Source: Micromonospora inositola
GTDB taxonomy: Bacteria > Actinomycetota > Actinomycetes > Mycobacteriales > Micromonosporaceae
Length of the DNA: 64,000 bases
Assembly: GCF_900090285.1 (NCBI RefSeq)
Contig: NZ_LT607754.1
Span: 4,118,001 to 4,182,000, forward strand
Reading direction: 5' to 3'
The notes under the pieces: model-generated
The model's database searches: none
What the model saw: only the letters and a program-made list of their open reading frames with translations
Told to the model about the DNA's origin: nothing
Translations under genes and position numbers: made by a program
Shown: one piece after another, positions 52,664-62,429 of the stretch
Layout: each line of letters opens with the position of its first letter
Numbering within the stretch: position 1 is the stretch's first letter

Positions 52664-54247
<1,584 letters not shown>

Positions 54248-54395: not shown

Positions 54396-55153
54396 GAACG
54401 CGAAGATCATCCTCCCGTGGTCGGATCCCAACACCCGCCGCTCGAAGATCCATCGGACGTACGGGGCGGTGACCGGGTCGGCTTCCAGGCGATGCAGGCG
54501 CCGCCCCAGGCGGCGTGGGCGTGGTTCGGATGAGGTCCGGCGGCCACGAGTCGGTAGCCGTAGGGTGGCCGGCCGCCGAGGCGTCGACCCTGCAGTTCGG
54601 CTTGGGCGCGCATGGCCGCGGAGGTGCGGTGCCGGGCTCGGGACACCTCCCGCTGGGAGACCACGCCCAGCAGGTCCAGCAGCGCCAACTGTCGGGGGTT
54701 GTCGAAGTCCACCGGCCCGTAGGTCTCCGGCAGCCACAGCTGCACCCCGTGCCGGACGATGGTGGGGGTCAGCTGTTCGAGCTGTTGGCCGTGGAAGGCG
54801 CTTTCGTACTCGCCCACGACGATCGCGTCGAACCCGCGCGCCGGGTCCGCCACGGCGGCGAGCAGCCGTGCCGCCTGCGGCCGGTCCGGCCAGGCCAACC
54901 GGCGGGAGACACCCTCGTCGAAGAACTCGGCCACGATCCGACCATGACCGGCGACCAGGTCCTGGGCGTAGTCGCGCTGCCACCGGCACGACGACGCCCG
55001 ATCCTGGCAGTCCGTTGTGGACATCCGGCCGTAGAACGCGAACCGCAGCCCATCCGCCGACGAGGTGAACCGCCGCGGCCGGACCTTTCGCTGCTGGGCC
55101 GCCCACGACGCAAGAGTGGCCTGTCCGGGGATCACATCCATGCGCATCGCCAT
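54370..55153 (-). pseudogene. large serine recombinase, N-terminal part, frameshifted
   Basis: ATG at 55153. The resolvase domain reads LRFAFYGRMSTTDCQDRASS (catalytic Ser in GRMST), GRIVAEFFDEGVSRRLAWPD, RPQAARLLAAVADPARGFDA and VVGEYESAFHGQQLEQL. The Recombinase domain begins at GRRLGGRPPYGYRLVAAGPH. A one-base loss near 54500 shifts GRRLHRLEADPVTAPYVRWI into another frame, and all after ERRVLG is missing. The cut abuts the groEL CIRCE region. It represents the opposite half of the family seen at 1510-2820. Confidence 0.85.
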
Positions 55154-55220: not shown

Positions 55221-55614
55221 CTACTTGTGGAGGTTCGTCACCTGGTGCCGCTGGTTTCGTGGCTTGCCGGTGGGCGTGAACCGCGATGAAACCGCGGTGA
55301 TCCCCGCCGTCGGCATGCTCGCCGGCATGACGACGACAACCGTGACCGCGATCCAGAAGGCCGGGTAGAGCCGCACGATCCGGGAGACGACGAACGCCCG
55401 GGGCCTGCGGTCCCACGCGGACAACAGCACGACGAAACCGCTGATCACAATGAACAGGTCCACGCCGAGATAACCGTACCGGGACACCTCGCCGAGCCCC
55501 CGGGAACGAGACCGGTGAAAGCCCCTGCATCCAGCCGGAGAAGGTGTAATGGAAGATCACCACCGCCAGGGCTGCGATGATCCGCAACAGATCAATCTCG
55601 TACAGCCGCCTCAC
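55221..55614 (-). pseudogene. acyltransferase-3 (OafA/VanT-membrane-domain type), truncated
   Basis: GTG at 55614 overlaps the VanX stop (GTGA). Residues 1-45 read RRLYEIDLLRIIAALAVVIF, HYTFSGWMQ, then a one-base slip in the C5/G run near 55496-55500. The next frame continues SRYGYLGVDLFIVISGFVVL, FVVSRIVRLYPAFWIA, the first three helices of Acyl_transf_3 with R/H catalytic-region hints. Beyond about 55300 the sequence is unrelated. About 110 of the usual 350-400 residues survive. It was the last gene of the van-like operon. Confidence 0.75.
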
Positions 55615-56255
55615 GGCAGATCTACTGGCCCGTACCGGGTCCGGGCGGCCCCGGTGCTCAGCGCCCAGTAGCGGTCGCCGAACGACCAGTGCCACCATTC
55701 GGTCGGGTAGTTGACCATGCCGGCGGACGACAGCGCGTGGCCCAGGATGGCGCGATTGGTGCGGGCCTGCGGCGAGATGTCGGGTGATCCGGTGAAGCAG
55801 GCGTTGGCGCTGTCCACCGGGCTGGCGTTGACGATCGTGCCCAGGTCCAGTTCGAGCCCATCGGCCGTACAGAGCGTGAGGTCGACCGTCCCGCCGGTAC
55901 TGTGCGGAGCCACCTCGGGCGGCGAGATGTACTTGCTGGCCTCCACGTGCCGGCGCGCCGAGTCCCAGTCCGGGTACCTGCGGCGCAGTTCGTCCTTGTA
56001 GCCCTCGAAGTAGGTCGTCTGCAGGCTGAGTGGCCGGTACCCCTCGATGATCCGCAGCCGCAGCCCCCGAGGCAGGGTCCGCTGGGCGGCGAGCAGGCGC
56101 TGGACCGTTGCCTCACGCAGGTGTGCGTAGGCCCCGGCCTCGTCGGCCAGGCGATCGTCAACCCGAAGTTCCGCAACCTGGCGTACGTCGACCAGGGCCT
56201 CCCCGTTGTCGCCGAGCGGGATGGCCGAGATTCGCCGATCAGACAGCAGGATCAT
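55611..56255 (-). CDS. vanX: VanX-type D-alanyl-D-alanine dipeptidase
   Basis: 214 residues, close to enterococcal VanX (202). Zinc and catalytic residues are all in place: Arg74 (EGYRP), His118 and Asp125 in APHSTGGTVDLTL, Glu186 and His189 in PTEWWHWSFGD. VanX destroys D-Ala-D-Ala so that altered precursors dominate the wall. Its ATG overlaps the murG stop by 4 nt. No signal peptide, so cytoplasmic as expected. Part of the overlapping operon from 59821 to 55221. Confidence 0.93.
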   Translation of the reverse strand: MILLSDRRISAIPLGDNGEALVDVRQVAELRVDDRLADEAGAYAHLREATVQRLLAAQRTLPRGLRLRIIEGYRPLSLQTTYFEGYKDELRRRYPDWDSARRHVEASKYISPPEVAPHSTGGTVDLTLCTADGLELDLGTIVNASPVDSANACFTGSPDISPQARTNRAILGHALSSAGMVNYPTEWWHWSFGDRYWALSTGAARTRYGPVDLP

Positions 56256-57427
56256 GACCGGTACCGCCCAGCGGCGTCGATGATCGCGCTGGCCACGGCC
56301 GTGGCCGCATGGGGCCGGCCGTGTTGACGGGCGGCGTTGGCCAACTCCCGGCGTCGCTCCTGGTGGTCGAGCAGCACCATGATCTCCTCACAAAGGCGGT
56401 TGGCGGAGGCGTCGGAGCCGGCGAGCATGCGGGCCGCACCTGCGTCGGCGAGGTGCCGTGCGGTCCGCCGCTGCTCGTCGCCTCCGGTGGGGATGAGCGG
56501 GATGAAGACGCATGCCTTGCCCAGGGCGGTGAGTTCGGCGACCGTGCCGGCGCCGCTGCGCGCGACGACGATGTCCGCAGCGCTCAGGACGTCGGGCAGC
56601 TCGCCGTGGACGTAATCGACCACCCGGTACCTGCTGCGCAGGTGTTCCGGGAGGGCGGCCGCGACCTGCCGCATCCGGTCGAGTGAGAAGTCACCGCACT
56701 GGTGCAGCACCTGACATTTCGGCAGGAGTCCGGGGAGGATGTCGGCGATCAGGTTGTTGACCTGGACGGCGCCCTGGGCGCCGCCGGTGACGTACACCAG
56801 CGGCAGGCGCGGATCCAGGTGGTATGCGGCGAGCGCCCGGTTGCGGTTGCCACTGAGAATCTCGGGCCGGATCGGGTTGCCGGTGATCACCGCGCGGGCT
56901 TTCGCTCGGGCGGGCAGATGGTCGATGGAGGATTCGTGGCTCAGCAGGACTCGATCGGCCAGGCGGGCGAGGATCCGGTTCGCCAGCCCGAGCGTGAGGA
57001 TCTGCTCGTGCATGACCAGCGGGCGGCGGGTCATCCAGGCGGCGATCCCGATCGGGACGGAGACGTACCCGCCGGTGGAGAAGACCACGTCGGGCCGGGT
57101 GCGCACCACGATCATGATGGACTGGAAGATGCCGAGCGGCACGCGGAAGGCGTCGGCGACGTTGCGGCCCCACTCGTGCAGGTTCGGCGAGCGGCGCAGT
57201 TTGCCGGTGGTGATCGCCGTGAAGGGAATGCCCTCCTGCCGGGCGATTCTGGCCTCCAGTCCGTGGGCGACGCCCACCCAGCGGACGTCCGGTGCGGTGC
57301 CGGCTGCCGCTAGCCGGTCGCGGAGCGTACGGATCGTGGTCAGCGCCGGGTAGGTGTGCCCGCCCGTTCCCCCGCCCGTGACGATCATGCGGAGACCACG
57401 GAGATGTTCCGCGGTGTAGACGGCCAT
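56252..57427 (-). CDS. murG: MurG-type undecaprenyl-PP-MurNAc-pentapeptide GlcNAc transferase paralogue
   Basis: 391 residues. GT28 features: VTGGGTGGHTYPALTTI, VGVAHGLEARIARQEGIPF, STGGYVSVPIGIAAW, MHEQILTLGLANRIL, the C-lobe loop VTGGAQGAVQVN and VARSGAGTVAELTALGKACV. MurG converts lipid I to lipid II. Finding it outside a division-wall cluster, between ddl and vanX, suggests a paralogue used for altered precursors. Its ATG overlaps the ddl stop by one nucleotide (TGATG). A 12-residue N-terminal extension precedes the first strand. Confidence 0.92.
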   Translation of the reverse strand: MAVYTAEHLRGLRMIVTGGGTGGHTYPALTTIRTLRDRLAAAGTAPDVRWVGVAHGLEARIARQEGIPFTAITTGKLRRSPNLHEWGRNVADAFRVPLGIFQSIMIVVRTRPDVVFSTGGYVSVPIGIAAWMTRRPLVMHEQILTLGLANRILARLADRVLLSHESSIDHLPARAKARAVITGNPIRPEILSGNRNRALAAYHLDPRLPLVYVTGGAQGAVQVNNLIADILPGLLPKCQVLHQCGDFSLDRMRQVAAALPEHLRSRYRVVDYVHGELPDVLSAADIVVARSGAGTVAELTALGKACVFIPLIPTGGDEQRRTARHLADAGAARMLAGSDASANRLCEEIMVLLDHQERRRELANAARQHGRPHAATAVASAIIDAAGRYRS

Positions 57428-58455
57428 CAGCAGGGACTCGGGCAGGGGGAGGCGGTGTCGCGTCGGTGCAGTGCGCCCTGGATGAGGATGTCGAGCAGTG
57501 CGGAGTAGCCGACGCCGGCCCGCTGCCAGATCTGCGGGTACTGGGAGGCGGCGGTGAATCCGGGGAAGGTGTTGACCTCGTTGATCACCGGCTCCCGGTA
57601 GTCTCCGGTCCACCCTGTGCCGTGGTCGGCGTCCCGATCCGGGAGGAAGAAGTCGACGCGGAGCAGCCCACGGCAGCCGAGCGCGTGGAACGCCTGCACA
57701 GCCCGGTCCTGCAGCAGTCGGGTGGTGCCGGGGTCGAGCTGGGCCGGAATGTGGAAGACGGCACCGCCGTCGTACTTGGCGTCGTAGTCGAAGAAGGCGG
57801 CGTTCGCCACCCGTATCTCCAGCGGCGGCCCGGCCTCGACGCGACCGTCGGGGTGCTGAAGGACGCCGACGTCGATCTCGCGCCCGCGCACGGCGCGTTC
57901 GACGAGAACCTTCGCGTCGCTCTCGCGCGCGAGCCGCAGGGCGGCAGGCAGTTGCGCCCATTGTTCGACCTTGGAGACTCCCAGACTGGAGCCGGCCCGG
58001 GCCGGTTTGACGAAGACGGGCAGCCCCAGCCGCTCCTGATCCCGCGACGACAGCTCCTCGTCGGGGCGCAGCGTCACCCCGGCGGCCACGCGCAGGCCGT
58101 CGGCGGCGAGGAGTTTCTTCGTGACCGGCTTGTCCATCCCCGCGGCGCTGGCGAAGACACCGTTTCCGACAAACGCGACGCCGAGCCACTCCAGCATCGA
58201 CTGGACGGTGCCGTCCTCACCGTACGGGCCGTGCAGCGCCGGAAACACCACGTCCTGACCGCCCAGGCTCCGCAGCGCCTGCGCGAACGTGGCCCGGTCG
58301 CCATCCACCCGCCACTGGCCGTCCCGCTCGATCAGCACCTCGGTCACGTCGTACGTGTCGCGGTCGAGATGGGCCAGGATGCTTTCCGCCGAGCGCCGGG
58401 AGACCTCGTGCTCCCCGCTGCGCCCACCGAACAGCACCGCCAAACGAACAGTCAT
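57427..58455 (-). CDS. ddl: D-alanine--D-alanine (D-X) ligase
   Basis: 342 residues, ATP-grasp. FGGRSGEHEVS carries Glu15 for the first D-Ala; FPALHGPYGEDGTVQ, VKPARAGSSLGVSKV, VERAVRGREIDVGV and NEVNTFPGFT follow. The omega loop reads FFDYDAKYDGG with Tyr228, like D-Ala-D-Ala ligases and unlike VanA-type D-Lac enzymes; D-Ser ligases usually have EKY here. No vanH is nearby, so D-lactate is unlikely. Overlaps alr by 4 nt. The second substrate is the open question. Confidence 0.93.
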   Translation of the reverse strand: MTVRLAVLFGGRSGEHEVSRRSAESILAHLDRDTYDVTEVLIERDGQWRVDGDRATFAQALRSLGGQDVVFPALHGPYGEDGTVQSMLEWLGVAFVGNGVFASAAGMDKPVTKKLLAADGLRVAAGVTLRPDEELSSRDQERLGLPVFVKPARAGSSLGVSKVEQWAQLPAALRLARESDAKVLVERAVRGREIDVGVLQHPDGRVEAGPPLEIRVANAAFFDYDAKYDGGAVFHIPAQLDPGTTRLLQDRAVQAFHALGCRGLLRVDFFLPDRDADHGTGWTGDYREPVINEVNTFPGFTAASQYPQIWQRAGVGYSALLDILIQGALHRRDTASPCPSPC

Positions 58456-59657
58456 GATGTCGCCGCTCCCCCGCGTAGGTGTACGCGCGCCACTCGCGCT
58501 CCAATTCCGGTCAAGACTTCATGCGGGTTGGTGCCGGCCCACTGCGCCCACTCCGCGGCCGTCGGCTCGGCCGTGTCAGGCGAGCCCGGCTCGGCGCCGG
58601 CACCGAAGACGACCACGGGATCGCCGAGCACCACCGGTAGATCGCCGACATCGGCGACGCACTGATCCATGGCGATGCGGCCGACGATCGGACATCGTCG
58701 ACCAGCGAGCCAGACCCACGCGCGGCCCTCGGCGGTGCGCGACAGACCATCGGCGTACCCGAGCGGCAGCAGAGCGAGCGTGGTCGGCCGATTGGTCACG
58801 TGGTCGGGCCCGTACGAGACGCCGGTCCCGCCGGGCACGCGCTTCAGGTTGATCACCCTTGACCTCAGGGTCATGGCGGGTCGCAGGCCGAAACGGCGGG
58901 GACCAGTCGCGCCAAAGGGGTCGACGCCATACATGGCCAGGCCGATCCGACAGAGATCGAACCGGGTCTCCGGGGCGGCCAGTGTCGCCGCCGAATTGGC
59001 CAGATGCGCCACTTCGGGGTCAAGCCCGGCATCCCGAGCGATCCGCAGCGCCTCCCGGAACGTTGACAGCTCCCGCCCGATGCTCGGGCATCCAGGCACG
59101 TCGGCGTTCGTCAAGTGGGACCACACCCCGTGTACCCGGACGCTGCCCTCCGCCTCGTGCTTGCGAGCCCAGGCGACCAGTTCGGGCCATTCGTCGCCGC
59201 TGGCACCGTTGCGTGACAGACCGACGTCCGCCTTGAGCTGGACTGCGGCGGGCACACCGAGATCCGTGGCCGCGTTGGCGACCGCGCGCAGATGGGTCGT
59301 GGTCGACACCGCGATGTCGACGTCCGCGGCGATCAGGCGGGTGAAGTCCTCGTCCGGCCGGTGCAGCCAGCTCAGGATGGGCGCATCGATGCCCGCCGAT
59401 CGCAGTGCCACCGCCTCCGTCGCCGAGGTCACGCCCAGCCAGTCGGCGCCGGCCCCCAACGCAGTCCGCGCCACCGGCACCGCGCCGTGCCCGAACCCGT
59501 CGGCCTTCACTACCGCCATCAACCCGGTACGTGCGATGGCCGCGATCGTCCGGATGTTCTCCGCGATCGCCGCAAGATCGATCACGGCCTCGGCGAGCTG
59601 GGCACTCCCGTTGATCACATCGGTCGGCGCGCGCCGACCGCGCGTACCAGGCGTCAC
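58452..59657 (-). CDS. alr: alanine racemase-family PLP enzyme (Alr, possibly serine-active)
   Basis: GTG at 59657, overlapping the stop of the small upstream ORF (GTGA). 401 residues. PLP Lys51 in MAVVKADGFGHGAV, then GADWLGVTSATEAVALR, VQLKADVGLSRNG, VHGVWSHLTNAD, the catalytic Tyr region GVSYGPDHV and IAMDQCVADVG. It makes D-Ala (or D-Ser) from the L-form. The position matching Tyr354 of Geobacillus Alr appears to be Ala (GIGARVARV), but actinomycete Alr proteins vary there. No membrane domain, unlike VanT. Confidence 0.92.
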   Translation of the reverse strand: MTPGTRGRRAPTDVINGSAQLAEAVIDLAAIAENIRTIAAIARTGLMAVVKADGFGHGAVPVARTALGAGADWLGVTSATEAVALRSAGIDAPILSWLHRPDEDFTRLIAADVDIAVSTTTHLRAVANAATDLGVPAAVQLKADVGLSRNGASGDEWPELVAWARKHEAEGSVRVHGVWSHLTNADVPGCPSIGRELSTFREALRIARDAGLDPEVAHLANSAATLAAPETRFDLCRIGLAMYGVDPFGATGPRRFGLRPAMTLRSRVINLKRVPGGTGVSYGPDHVTNRPTTLALLPLGYADGLSRTAEGRAWVWLAGRRCPIVGRIAMDQCVADVGDLPVVLGDPVVVFGAGAEPGSPDTAEPTAAEWAQWAGTNPHEVLTGIGARVARVHLRGGAATS

Positions 59658-59821
59658 CCGGCAGCCCTGGGTTCGACGGGCGGTTCATCCGGCGGTTCGG
59701 CGGCCCCGTGCCCGCCGACAGCGGCGGCCCGGCGCACCGCGAGCGTCTCCCGGATCCGCCGCCGGACCGCCCGCCGCCGTTGCTCGTCGCGGCGGCCTGG
59801 GTGTGCTGGTTCGAAGATCAT
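59654..59821 (-). CDS. 55-residue basic leader protein of the van-like operon
   Basis: ATG at 59821, stop 59654-59656 overlapping the alr GTG by 4 nt. It reads MIFEPAHPGRRDEQRRRAVR, RRIRETLAVRRAAAVGGHGA, then a Glu/Pro tail ending PRAAG. Strong codon regularity and exact coupling to alr support translation. Very Arg-rich helix in the middle; no signal peptide or membrane segment. It may only couple translation, or bind RNA or an acidic partner. Not assigned to any family. Confidence 0.65.
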   Translation of the reverse strand: MIFEPAHPGRRDEQRRRAVRRRIRETLAVRRAAAVGGHGAAEPPDEPPVEPRAAG

Positions 59822-59865
59822 GTCCGGCTCCTGACTGACATGACGGGCACGGTAGGCAGCCTGTT

Positions 59866-59950
59866 GTGAAGAACCCTTGAAGAAGCCGTGGGCCAGCTGT
59901 GCGGATATCCCGCTCGCCGCTTTCGGAGCCCGCCCACATCAGTTCTTCAC
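59866..59950. promoter_or_regulatory. candidate VanR-type operator repeats
   Basis: GTGAAGAA (59866-59873) and TTGAAGAA (59877-59884) are direct repeats with an 11-bp period, the spacing OmpR-family dimers prefer. The inverse TTCTTCAC (59943-59950) lies nearer the regulator gene. They sit between the divergent operon and the response-regulator gene. Confidence 0.5.
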
Positions 59951-60000
59951 GGGTTTCGGGTTTACTTGACCCCCGCCACCACCAGGCAGAATGGGGAAAC

Positions 60001-60741
60001 ATGAGCGCGCGGATCCTGGTCGCCGAGGACGACCCCAAGCAGGCCAACCTGGTGCGGGTCTATCTCGAACGCGAGGGGCACAGCGTGCTGCTGGTCGGCG
60101 ACGGGCGGGGCGCGCTGGACCAGTGCCGGGCTCGCCGGCCGGACCTGGTGGTCCTCGATGTGATGATGCCGGTCGTCGACGGCCTCGACGTGTGCCGGAT
60201 CCTGCGCGCCGAATCGGACATCCCGGTCCTGCTGCTGACCGCCCGTACCACCGAGGAAGACATGCTGCTGGGCCTGGACATCGGCGCCGACGACTACCTC
60301 ACCAAGCCGTACAGCCCGCGGGAGCTGGCCGCCCGGGTACGGGCGCTGCTGCGCCGGGCCCGGGTGGTGAGCGCCGACAAACGGGCGGTGCTGCGCGTCG
60401 GCGAGCTCGAGGTGGACGCCGGCCGGTTCGAGGTACGCGTCGGCGGCCGGCCGGTCGCCCTGACGGCCAAGGAGTTCGGCATCCTCGAGGTGCTCGCCGG
60501 CGAGCCGGGGCGGGCGTTCACCCGGGCGCAGATCATCGACCGGGCCTTCGGATTCGATCATTTCGTGCTCGAACGCACCGTCGACGCGCACGTGATGAAC
60601 CTGCGCCGCAAGATCGAGGATGATGTTGCCGAGCCGCGGTACGTGCAGACCGTCTACGGCCGCGGCTACCGGCTTGCCGAACCGGAGCCGGAACCGGCGG
60701 CGACGCCGACGCCCGAGGGCACGCCCGGAGCCAGCCGGTGA
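60001..60741 (+). CDS. OmpR/VanR-type response regulator
   Basis: ATG at 60001; 246 residues. Receiver: EDD at 9-11, phospho-acceptor Asp53 (LVVLDVMMPVVDG), LLTARTTEEDMLLGLDIGAD and YLTKPYSPREL with the conserved Lys. C-terminal winged helix: GGRPVALTAKEFGILEVLAG, RAQIIDRAFGFDHFVLERTV, DAHVMNLRRKIEDD and VYGRGYRL. Divergent from the alr-ddl-murG-vanX operon, whose probable activator it is. Overlaps the kinase start by 4 nt (GTGA). Confidence 0.95.
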   Translation: MSARILVAEDDPKQANLVRVYLEREGHSVLLVGDGRGALDQCRARRPDLVVLDVMMPVVDGLDVCRILRAESDIPVLLLTARTTEEDMLLGLDIGADDYLTKPYSPRELAARVRALLRRARVVSADKRAVLRVGELEVDAGRFEVRVGGRPVALTAKEFGILEVLAGEPGRAFTRAQIIDRAFGFDHFVLERTVDAHVMNLRRKIEDDVAEPRYVQTVYGRGYRLAEPEPEPAATPTPEGTPGASR

Positions 60742-62429
60742 GTTTTCGGCTACGGGTGCTCTGGCTGGTCATCCTCGTCGCGGTGAGCGCGACCGCGGCG
60801 ACCGCGTGGCTGACCCTGCGGCAGGCCTCGCAACAGATCAACGACTCGGCCACCACCGACCGGGCGCAACTCGACCAGGTCGTCGGCCGACTCAGGACGT
60901 ACGGCAGCCAGCACGGCACCTGGGAGGGCGTGCCCGACCTGGTGCAGGCCCTGCGCGCCCAGACCGGTCAGCGGATCCACCTGGTCGCCGACACGGGTGA
61001 CGTGATCGTGGACACGGACACCCAGGAGAACCGCACCGCCCGGCCGCTGGGCACGATGGTCGGGTTCGTCGACCCGCGGCCGGTATTGAATCTGGCCGCA
61101 TTGCCAGCGGAGCCGGCCCGGGAGAAAGGCGTGGTCCTCGCGATCGCCGCCTACCGCACCGGCGTGCTGTTCGCGGCCTGCCTGACCCGGGAATCCGTCC
61201 CTGTTGTTGCTTCACCCACCAGCACGGGAGTTCCGCAGTTCGACGCCGACCTGGGCGCGGCCGACGTGCGCGATCGCCAGGGCGTCGACGAGATCGTCGA
61301 CGGCTGTCGCGACGCCGCGGCCGAGCCGGACCGGGACCGGGCGGCCGGCGCCGACCGGGTGCAGGACTGTGGCGCCCTGACGGCGGTGGAACCACTGGAT
61401 TCCTGCTTGGCCCAGGCCTTTACCAACCAGATCAGTGACGTCGCGCCGATACCCGCCCGGGTCTACCTCGGCGCTCGCGGCGATCCGGCGTCCGCGCTGG
61501 CGGCCGGTCCGCTGCTCGCCGCGGCGGCGGGCGTTGCGACGGTCGCGGTCATCGGCACCGTGCTGCTGAGCCGGCGAGTGCTGCGCCCCATCGACACGCT
61601 CACCACGGCCGCTCAGCGGCTCGGCCGGGGCGACCTCGCCGGACGGGTGCCGGTGCGGGGCAACGACGAGCTGGCGGAGTTGGCCCGGTCGTTCAACCGG
61701 ATGGCCGACTCCCTGCAGCGCGGGGAGGAGCGGCAACGCCGGCTGGTCGCCGACGTCGCACATGAACTGCGCACCCCGCTGGCCAACCTGCGCGGCTATC
61801 TCGAGGCGCTCTCCGATGGCGTGATCACGCCGGACCAGGAGCTCTACGCCTCGCTGCTCGAAGAGGCGGTGCTGCAACAGCGCATCGTCGATGACCTGCA
61901 GGACCTGGCCCTGGCTGAGGCCGGCAACCTGGCGTACCACCGGGTCACCGTGGATCTGGCCGAACTCCTGGAGACCTGCCGCACCGCCCACCACGCCCGG
62001 GCGGAGTCAGCCGGGGTGTCGTTGCGCGTGGCGGCCGAGCCGGTTGCGGTACACGCCGATCCCGACCGGCTCCGCCAGGTGGTGGGCAATCTCGTCACCA
62101 ACGCACTACGGGCGACCGCTGCGGGCGGCAGCGTCCGGCTGGTCGCGAGCCGCACCGACACGCAGGCGATCGTCCAGGTCGTCGACACCGGCTCGGGAAT
62201 CGCAGCGGACGCGCTGCCGCATGTGTTCGACCGGTTCTGGCGGGCCGACGCCGCACGGGGCCGCCGTACCGGGGGCAGTGGCCTCGGCCTCGCCATCGCC
62301 CGGCAGATCGTCACCGATCACCAGGGCACCATCACGGTCGCGAGTGAGGCCGGCGTCGGGACGACATTCACCATCACGCTTCCCCTTCCGACTAAGGGAC
62401 GTCTCGTAACCCCGGCGTCTGTCTGTTGA
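60738..62429 (+). CDS. VanS-like sensor histidine kinase with large Cys-containing outside domain
   Basis: GTG at 60738; 563 residues. TM1 (LRVLWLVILVAVSATAATAW) and TM2 near residues 255-277 (LLAAAAGVATVAVIGTVLLS) enclose an outside domain of about 220 residues with four Cys (FAACL, VDGCRD, VQDCGAL, LDSCLA), able to form two disulfides. HAMP (RRVLRPIDTLTTAAQRLGRG), HisKA with His342 (VADVAHELRTPLANLRGYLE), HATPase with NLVTNALRA, DTGSGIAADALPHVFDRFWR and GGSGLGLAIA follow. Typical VanS sensors of actinomycetes have short outside loops, so the ligand may differ from vancomycin. Confidence 0.94.
   Translation: MSFRLRVLWLVILVAVSATAATAWLTLRQASQQINDSATTDRAQLDQVVGRLRTYGSQHGTWEGVPDLVQALRAQTGQRIHLVADTGDVIVDTDTQENRTARPLGTMVGFVDPRPVLNLAALPAEPAREKGVVLAIAAYRTGVLFAACLTRESVPVVASPTSTGVPQFDADLGAADVRDRQGVDEIVDGCRDAAAEPDRDRAAGADRVQDCGALTAVEPLDSCLAQAFTNQISDVAPIPARVYLGARGDPASALAAGPLLAAAAGVATVAVIGTVLLSRRVLRPIDTLTTAAQRLGRGDLAGRVPVRGNDELAELARSFNRMADSLQRGEERQRRLVADVAHELRTPLANLRGYLEALSDGVITPDQELYASLLEEAVLQQRIVDDLQDLALAEAGNLAYHRVTVDLAELLETCRTAHHARAESAGVSLRVAAEPVAVHADPDRLRQVVGNLVTNALRATAAGGSVRLVASRTDTQAIVQVVDTGSGIAADALPHVFDRFWRADAARGRRTGGSGLGLAIARQIVTDHQGTITVASEAGVGTTFTITLPLPTKGRLVTPASVC

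Follow-up and report, generated by a model that had tools for sequence, protein, structure and literature searches.

An apparently mobile alr-ddl-murG-vanX operon of Micromonospora as a candidate module for an altered peptidoglycan terminus

Within a 64,000-nucleotide stretch of Micromonospora inositola contig NZ_LT607754.1 (hereafter the window), part of a complete single-contig 6.7-Mb genome, lies an operon that encodes an alanine racemase-like protein, a D-Ala-D-Ala ligase-like protein, a MurG-like glycosyltransferase, and a VanX-like dipeptidase, and that is divergent from the genes of a two-component system. The locus raises the question of whether these additional enzymes serve ordinary D-Ala-D-Ala peptidoglycan or a peptidoglycan with a different end. 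The explanation that we favour, with about even confidence and from sequence comparison, is an inducible, horizontally moved module for a terminus other than D-Ala-D-Ala. The minus-strand operon runs ORF55 (an open reading frame, ORF), alr, ddl, murG-like, vanX-like, and a remnant of an acyltransferase-3 (AT3) gene, and the response regulator (RR) and histidine kinase (HK) genes are divergent from it on the plus strand:

59654..59821, minus strand: ORF55, possible leader peptide or small protein, open in 9/9 copies
58452..59657, minus strand: alr-like racemase (PF01168/PF00842, Ala_racemase_N/C), GTG start with an alternative start at 59618, gate motif GTNPHEV
57427..58455, minus strand: ddl-like ligase, predicted D-Ala-D-X ligase (PF01820/PF07478, Dala_Dala_lig_N/C), SQYP motif
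56252..57427, minus strand: MurG-like glycosyltransferase (PF03033/PF04101, Glyco_transf_28 N/C), HEQI motif
55611..56255, minus strand: VanX-like M15 dipeptidase (PF01427, Peptidase_M15)
55278..55614, minus strand: AT3 pseudogene (PF01757, Acyl_transf_3; two partial matches in different frames, below cut-off)
60001..60741, plus strand: OmpR-type response regulator (PF00072 and PF00486, Response_reg and Trans_reg_C), start set at MSARIL
60738..62429, plus strand: sensor histidine kinase, 563 aa (HAMP, HisKA, and HATPase_c from residue 276 on)

From these coordinates, ddl and murG overlap by 1 nt, and ORF55/alr, alr/ddl, murG/vanX, vanX/AT3, and RR/HK by 4 nt each. An earlier description made from the letters alone (the sequence-only reading) had reported six genes overlapping by 1-4 nt and divergent from an OmpR-type regulator and a kinase, with which the coordinates and Pfam families agree; its account of an operon that lacks vanH and carries a second MurG is borne out by the gene calls and Pfam matches. 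The arrangement is not due to chance, since it is kept in nine genomes.

The same genome contains one other alr above the family cut-off (at 2724107), a better-scoring ddl above the cut-off (at 427035) together with a third ddl-like gene below it, and a better-scoring murG above the cut-off (at 3776323). The cluster alr, ddl, and murG are not the housekeeping copies. The sequence-only reading had left room for their being the sole housekeeping alr, ddl, and murG, which is excluded by the other copies of all three.

The favoured explanation draws in part on the racemase and the ligase. Alignment with solved structures and within the family placed His at the position of the inner-gate Tyr of the window racemase (GTNPHEV), and the window ligase has Gln in its SQYP motif where the housekeeping Ddl of the same genome has Met. 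In 43 of 44 adjacent alr-ddl pairs (40 from the family alignment, 36 with His and 4 with Asn, plus two from other families and one fusion), a His or Asn at the racemase gate is accompanied by Gln in the ligase. The background comprised, for each search over 61 genomes, the 29 other loci with the highest scores; here the racemases have Tyr in 28 of 29 cases and Trp in one, and among the ligases 26 have Met, two have Leu, and one has Ala, with Gln in none. Gln is also lacking in two other ligases, that of L239, which has Met and no alr paired with it, and that of L245, which is fragmented; the ligases of L231 and L232 have Gln with no paired alr called beside either (G and L numbers designate genomes and loci). 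Three vanHAX ligases have Arg at this position, as VanC presumably does, a residue for which no usable literature confirmation was obtained. The inner-gate Tyr sets alanine specificity, and the serine racemase VanT has Asn there (PMC3485190); a racemase with Gln at the gate loses its L-Ser activity once this residue is changed to Tyr, and another racemase with His is also named (PMC4517790). Racemase and ligase are both altered at predicted specificity positions throughout the family.

Trees were built with housekeeping, pdx, and vanHAX sequences and one VanG-labelled ligase, leaving out VanT and proven VanC/VanG sequences. The cluster racemases formed one clade (23/23 sampled, no other sequence, local support 0.963), split from the housekeeping racemases. 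The paired ligases likewise formed one clade (23/23 sampled, local support 0.933) apart from housekeeping, pdx, and vanHAX ligases and from the VanG-labelled ligase; this comparator (L248) owes its label to RGI at 42% identity, has Met and a KY loop, and is not a proven D-Ser ligase. On Streptomyces coelicoflavus plasmid NZ_CP108219.1 (L246:7864-10065), a single protein of 733 aa, annotated as alr, is a natural fusion of Alr and Ddl and has the same His and Gln.

The wider actinobacterial core is the alr-ddl pair, which may or may not be accompanied by vanX and murG. Among the matches listed, a second Ddl of the paired type occurs in 27 of 62 same-genus genomes, 19 of which have AT3-alr-ddl facing an HK-RR pair, in much the same surroundings, and no vanX or murG match was found near these 19 loci. 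A small protein with a lipoprotein-like start (~110-185 aa; L216:8496-9005 and equivalents) lies between AT3-alr-ddl and the kinase in these 19 Micromonospora loci, and the one tested had no Pfam match. Pairs of alr and ddl are also present in other families of the order. The VanX family is more widespread than the MurG-like gene, whose distribution is given below. The order alr-ddl-murG-vanX, which the sequence-only reading proposed to look for in other genomes, was found in three of the best 80 of 538 VanX loci; of the other 77, 28 had PALP-ddl-vanX, 12 of them with AT3 in front.

The MurG-like gene, searched at E up to 1e-60, was found in 24 of 160 same-genus genomes, 18 of 397 genomes of the order, and 8 of 396 of the phylum. 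Of the eight from the phylum, one is the window, two have 51-55% identity, and five have 36-39%; four of these five were aligned, all without the HEQ motif, and the fifth (G816) gave no called gene. RR/HK-alr-ddl-murG is present in nine of the 24 same-genus genomes, that of the window included; of the remainder, G099 has alr-ddl-murG-vanX-AT3, G109 and G102 have alr-ddl near murG, and 12 have no alr-ddl pair within the fetched stretch. Eight same-genus genomes of 5.1-5.9 Mb (L131-L138) carry the MurG-like gene in similar surroundings without alr-ddl nearby. The window protein scores 229 bits against the TIGR01133 cut-off of 250.25, below the canonical MurG equivalog, and is ~27% identical to the canonical MurG of the same genome. 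All 37 aligned members of the MurG-like family have HEQI or HEQT, the canonical MurG of this genome has HEVN, and three solved MurG structures have HEQN, for whose Asn we assume a role in the enzyme.

Aligned to VanX (1r44), the VanX-like protein retains the GYRP, HxxxxxxD, and ExxH motifs, whose residues we take to have zinc-binding and catalytic roles. It matches PF01427 with these active-site motifs aligned, but scores 37.7 bits against 320 for dipept_VanX. VanX also occurs beside the ligase in G099, G102, and G186, with a divergent copy in G068; in G099 (L129), a second, partial vanX downstream of AT3 is a trace of duplication. A dipeptidase of this type adjoining the ligase suggests that the ligase product is other than D-Ala-D-Ala.

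The sequence-only reading had named the last gene an acyltransferase stump. The gene is there, but it is a frame-broken pseudogene, with two recognisable parts in different frames that end short of the serine recombinase described below, and an intact 375-aa relative occupies the same position in G099. AT3 adjoins the alr-ddl pair in three families (f1, f15, and f16), and G186 has vanX-alr-ddl-AT3 in one run, followed by kinase and regulator. Three Asanoa loci have AT3 near vanX alone. VanT is a fusion of an AT3 membrane domain with a serine racemase, and mutations for high-level resistance are said to lie in its AT3 part (PMC12423673). An AT3 gene beside a gate-changed racemase and a ligase would therefore be the parts list of a D-Ala-D-Ser system in split form, and together with a dipeptidase these are the parts of a VanT/VanC-type system, which would explain the missing vanH. 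The use of AT3 as a functional clue, the mobility of the unit within the genus, and the alr-ddl pair as a wider core had escaped the sequence-only reading.

Mobility is apparent from eight further same-genus genomes, in which homology to the unit extends over 6.2-6.8 kb with a DNA identity of 93-95%; in G020 an insertion splits it in two. At the kinase end, homology stops within ~25 bases of the same point in 8/8; at the other border it stops within ~20 bases of the vanX stop in 5/8, inside vanX in 2/8, and inside AT3 in 1/8. Among 88 called flanking genes, none of the window's was common to other genomes. Since the eight copies stand in other surroundings, the unit appears to move. G080 and G147 have two flanking genes in common (92% and 96% identity) on opposite sides of the unit, and short flank stretches common to pairs of genomes suggest the decay of an older border. 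Identity of the housekeeping murG, the one gene used as a yardstick of host relatedness, was 89% against 93.6% for the unit in G147 and 91% against 94.1% in G078; in G099 it was 94%, against 77.6% for the stretch from alr to AT3, and in G137, G080, G157, and G029 the two identities were alike. As the similarity of the unit does not simply track that of the hosts, we read the unit as horizontally transferred and mobile within the genus. A transposon with terminal repeats was considered and rejected, as no border repeat was seen by eye and none of the 25 longest of 124 inverted repeats joins both ends. In G020 (L121/L018) an element of TnpB type lies between alr and ddl, and G473 (L244) has two genes resembling a TnpA/TnpB pair in the same gap (all named by eye). 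The unit is bordered in the window as follows:

54407..55153, minus strand: serine recombinase with resolvase N-terminal domain (PF00239), beside the truncated AT3 gene

A GroEL-like chaperonin gene, named by eye from its translation, adjoins this recombinase at 52664-54235.

The intergenic region between operon and regulator contains two candidate sites:

59867..59884, minus strand: tandem box TTCTTCA-N4-TTCTTCA, candidate regulator site, conserved across copies
59943..59949, plus strand: single inverted TTCTTCA on the regulator side, present in 8/9 copies of the unit

The tandem box is exact in eight of the nine copies and has one mismatch in the ninth. With one mismatch allowed, neither the window, of which 100 shuffles gave no match, nor the genome contains a second match, although a backwards control pattern also matches once in the genome. 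The kinase scores 134 bits against a VanS cut-off of 400, and the regulator 136-181 against 350-500 for the vanR models shown; models of the BaeS/BaeR and MtrA/B types outscore VanR/VanS, yet these scores are also below their cut-offs. The long N-terminal part of the kinase has no Pfam match. ORF55 has no match in Pfam or NCBIfam, and one of its nine open copies has an in-frame 24-bp duplication; across the eight copies of equal length, 93, 134, and 135 differences fall at codon positions 1, 2, and 3, with no third-position bias. A conserved protein was rejected, the frame being open in 9/9 copies but without codon constraint, and ORF55 may be a leader, or not a gene at all.

Taken together as a mechanism, a wall-stress signal would lead the divergent two-component system to activate the operon by way of the tandem TTCTTCA box. 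The racemase, with His at its gate, would make a D-amino acid in place of D-Ala or in addition to it, most probably D-Ser, and the paired ligase would couple this product to D-Ala to give D-Ala-D-X. VanX would remove the D-Ala-D-Ala from the housekeeping ligase, so that MurF would load mostly the altered dipeptide, and the MurG-like enzyme would increase the capacity for converting lipid I to lipid II during use of the modified precursor. An intact AT3 would act like the membrane half of VanT; with its AT3 broken, the module of the window would have to do without this part. The proposal of the sequence-only reading, an inducible branch making an altered dipeptide end, is consistent with the changed specificity residues, the aligned VanX motifs, and the conserved promoter box; the altered end itself, with any phenotype that it would bring, we infer. 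No support was obtained for poor handling of the new precursor by the housekeeping MurG, or for glycopeptides as the inducer or as the drug resisted.

Several observations weigh against this explanation. The residue changes are kept by descent, so that the 43 pairs are not 43 independent cases, and the 44th pair (G169, L255), which is distant (32% and 26% identity) and supplies the Trp of the background racemases, has Trp at the gate and no Gln in the ligase. With the NCBIfam VanT models the cluster racemase scores 202 bits against a cut-off of 460, and the housekeeping racemase of the same genome scores higher (227); with D_ala_D_ser_VanG the cluster ligase scores 247 bits against 495, and the housekeeping Ddl again scores higher (300); with D_ala_D_ser the cluster ligase reaches 200 bits against 520. 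Whole-protein likeness to VanT or VanG was accordingly rejected as support, having failed this control. The ligase also retains, by motif, what we take to be the equivalents of DdlB Ser150 and Tyr216. These have been linked to ligases that make D-Ala-D-Ala only (PMC7691350). Most alr-ddl loci are without VanX. Of the nine unit copies, six have VanX at full length, G147 has it truncated, G029 has it split, and in G078 none was found; moreover, pdx ligases beside VanX keep Met, so that VanX alone neither requires Gln nor proves an altered ligase. None of the nine copies yielded an intact AT3, the gene being either broken or not found. Finally, insensitivity to D-cycloserine is a real rival, as set out below, given that a change at the corresponding gate residue raises the concentration of this drug needed for inhibition.

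The rival that survives best, a serious one although we consider it fairly unlikely, is a stress back-up in which the extra Alr, Ddl, and MurG boost D-Ala-D-Ala lipid II and VanX recycles excess dipeptide. MglA offers a precedent for substitution of MurG with normal peptidoglycan (PMC8092295), and relatives of the MurG-like gene often stand alone, as in the 12 same-genus genomes noted above. Such a back-up would not need the changes at the racemase gate and the ligase Met that are nevertheless present in 43 of 44 pairs, and its VanX would counteract an operon that makes D-Ala-D-Ala.

Alr and Ddl are the two targets of D-cycloserine. The operon contains copies of both, and it is conceivable, though unlikely, that it is an insensitivity cassette whose spare racemase and ligase resist the drug and still make ordinary D-Ala-D-Ala. 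The solved racemase that best matches that of the window is 1vfh, which we take to be from the D-cycloserine producer Streptomyces lavendulae; this racemase, however, keeps the Tyr. By alignment the changed Tyr is Y364 of Mycobacterium tuberculosis Alr, in which Y364D raised the half-maximal inhibitory concentration 50-fold (PMC5700341), and the ligase motifs equivalent to DdlB Ser150/Tyr216 would also fit an enzyme making D-Ala-D-Ala (PMC7691350). We weigh this rival lower because VanX would destroy the D-Ala-D-Ala made, and AT3 and MurG, neither of which such a cassette needs, would be idle.

That the unit is a decaying mobile remnant, functionless here, is quite improbable. The broken AT3, the truncated, split, or missing VanX in 3/9 copies, and the adjoining recombinase would fit such a remnant; the promoter box is kept, however, and across the nine copies the matches to alr, ddl, murG, RR, and HK span 0.9-1.0 of the query, although in G084 the murG frame may be disturbed near the N terminus. 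That the operon protects an antibiotic producer from its own product is scarcely probable at all, for although Alr and Ddl genes are generally known from antibiotic clusters, no biosynthetic cluster was evident by eye among the gene calls of the 64-kb window (a search dedicated to such clusters was not made), and none of the genes called on either side of the unit in the window is shared with the eight other genomes.

Returning to the module for a changed terminus, it is possible, and we propose it tentatively, that in some lineages VanX, MurG, and a sensor came to be carried together on a mobile cassette. This would be a further route to terminus exchange, distinct from that of enterococci and equipped with a separate lipid II step, and X might even be an amino acid unseen at position 5. 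If the favoured explanation is true, many soil actinomycetes would natively be able to exchange the stem terminus, a capacity that would then be more than an enterococcal resistance. D-Ala-D-X systems could in that case have an ancestral pool here, and the two-enzyme signature (His or Asn in the racemase, Gln in the ligase) could be used to find such systems in genomes. The poorly understood AT3 half of VanT would gain a comparative handle, as AT3, racemase, and ligase are here separate genes that come and go. Should the D-cycloserine explanation be true instead, the unit would serve in nature as a mobile reservoir of drug insensitivity of this kind.

Among known systems, related alr-ddl-vanY and vanHAX-murG clusters have already been published, whereas the present combination was not found in the literature: among the open-licence papers listed by text searches, no title or abstract opening presents the order alr-ddl-murG-vanX or the coupled changes in racemase and ligase residues. 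Compared with vanHAX, which makes D-Ala-D-Lac, the operon has no vanH, its ligase lies outside the clade of the three compared vanHAX ligases, and it has Gln where these have Arg, with the Tyr of the KY motif kept; membership in vanHAX was rejected on the ligase residues and the tree position. As described in PMC8698665, vanO-type operons have murG behind vanHAX, and as in the window a ligase and VanX are accompanied by a murG-like gene; unlike the window operon, they use the D-lactate route (vanH and a vanA-type ligase). The three vanHAX stretches that were fetched had no MurG match.

The Micromonospora pdx operon, PALP-ddl-vanX with vanRS (PMC8698665), resembles the window operon in its ligase, in its VanX, which is 61-68% identical to that of the window, in having a pyridoxal-phosphate enzyme, and in its genus. 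It differs in that this enzyme is of the PALP type, not an Alr-type racemase, and in that its ligase has Met in 27/27 cases and branches apart; on these grounds pdx was rejected as the same system. The PALP fold is, we assume, different from that of Alr-type racemases. No MurG-like match was found beside the pdx loci among the best VanX loci. In the 12 of 28 pdx loci with AT3 (L050:4611-8636 and relatives), AT3 lies directly before PALP, and the available part of PMC8698665 does not mention AT3. The same source describes alr/ddl/vanY clusters with vanRS in Allonocardiopsis, Murinocardiopsis, and Geodermatophilales, for which its authors suggest a D-Ala-D-Ser-like mechanism; compared by description, these have the racemase, ligase, and M15 peptidase beside a two-component system in common with the window, but contain VanY, not VanX, and MurG is not mentioned in the part available (PMC8698665). 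MglA of Kitasatospora, a MurG-like enzyme encoded outside the dcw cluster that replaces MurG with normal peptidoglycan, is like the window protein an addition to a canonical MurG; the accessible text describes no van-type neighbours (PMC8092295), which the window gene has.

The operon differs from the D-Ala-D-Ser operons (vanC, vanG, and vanE/L/N) in its split genes, added MurG, and actinobacterial hosts, and in a ligase that forms its own clade (in a compared set that contained no proven D-Ser ligase) and has Gln where we assume that VanC has Arg. D-Ala-D-Ser van operons consist of a racemase, an AT3 part, a D-Ala-D-X ligase, a D,D-dipeptidase, and a two-component system, with no vanH. The window operon is like them in its predicted parts list (with AT3 broken), in the lack of vanH, and in the replaced gate Tyr, which is Asn in VanT (PMC3485190).

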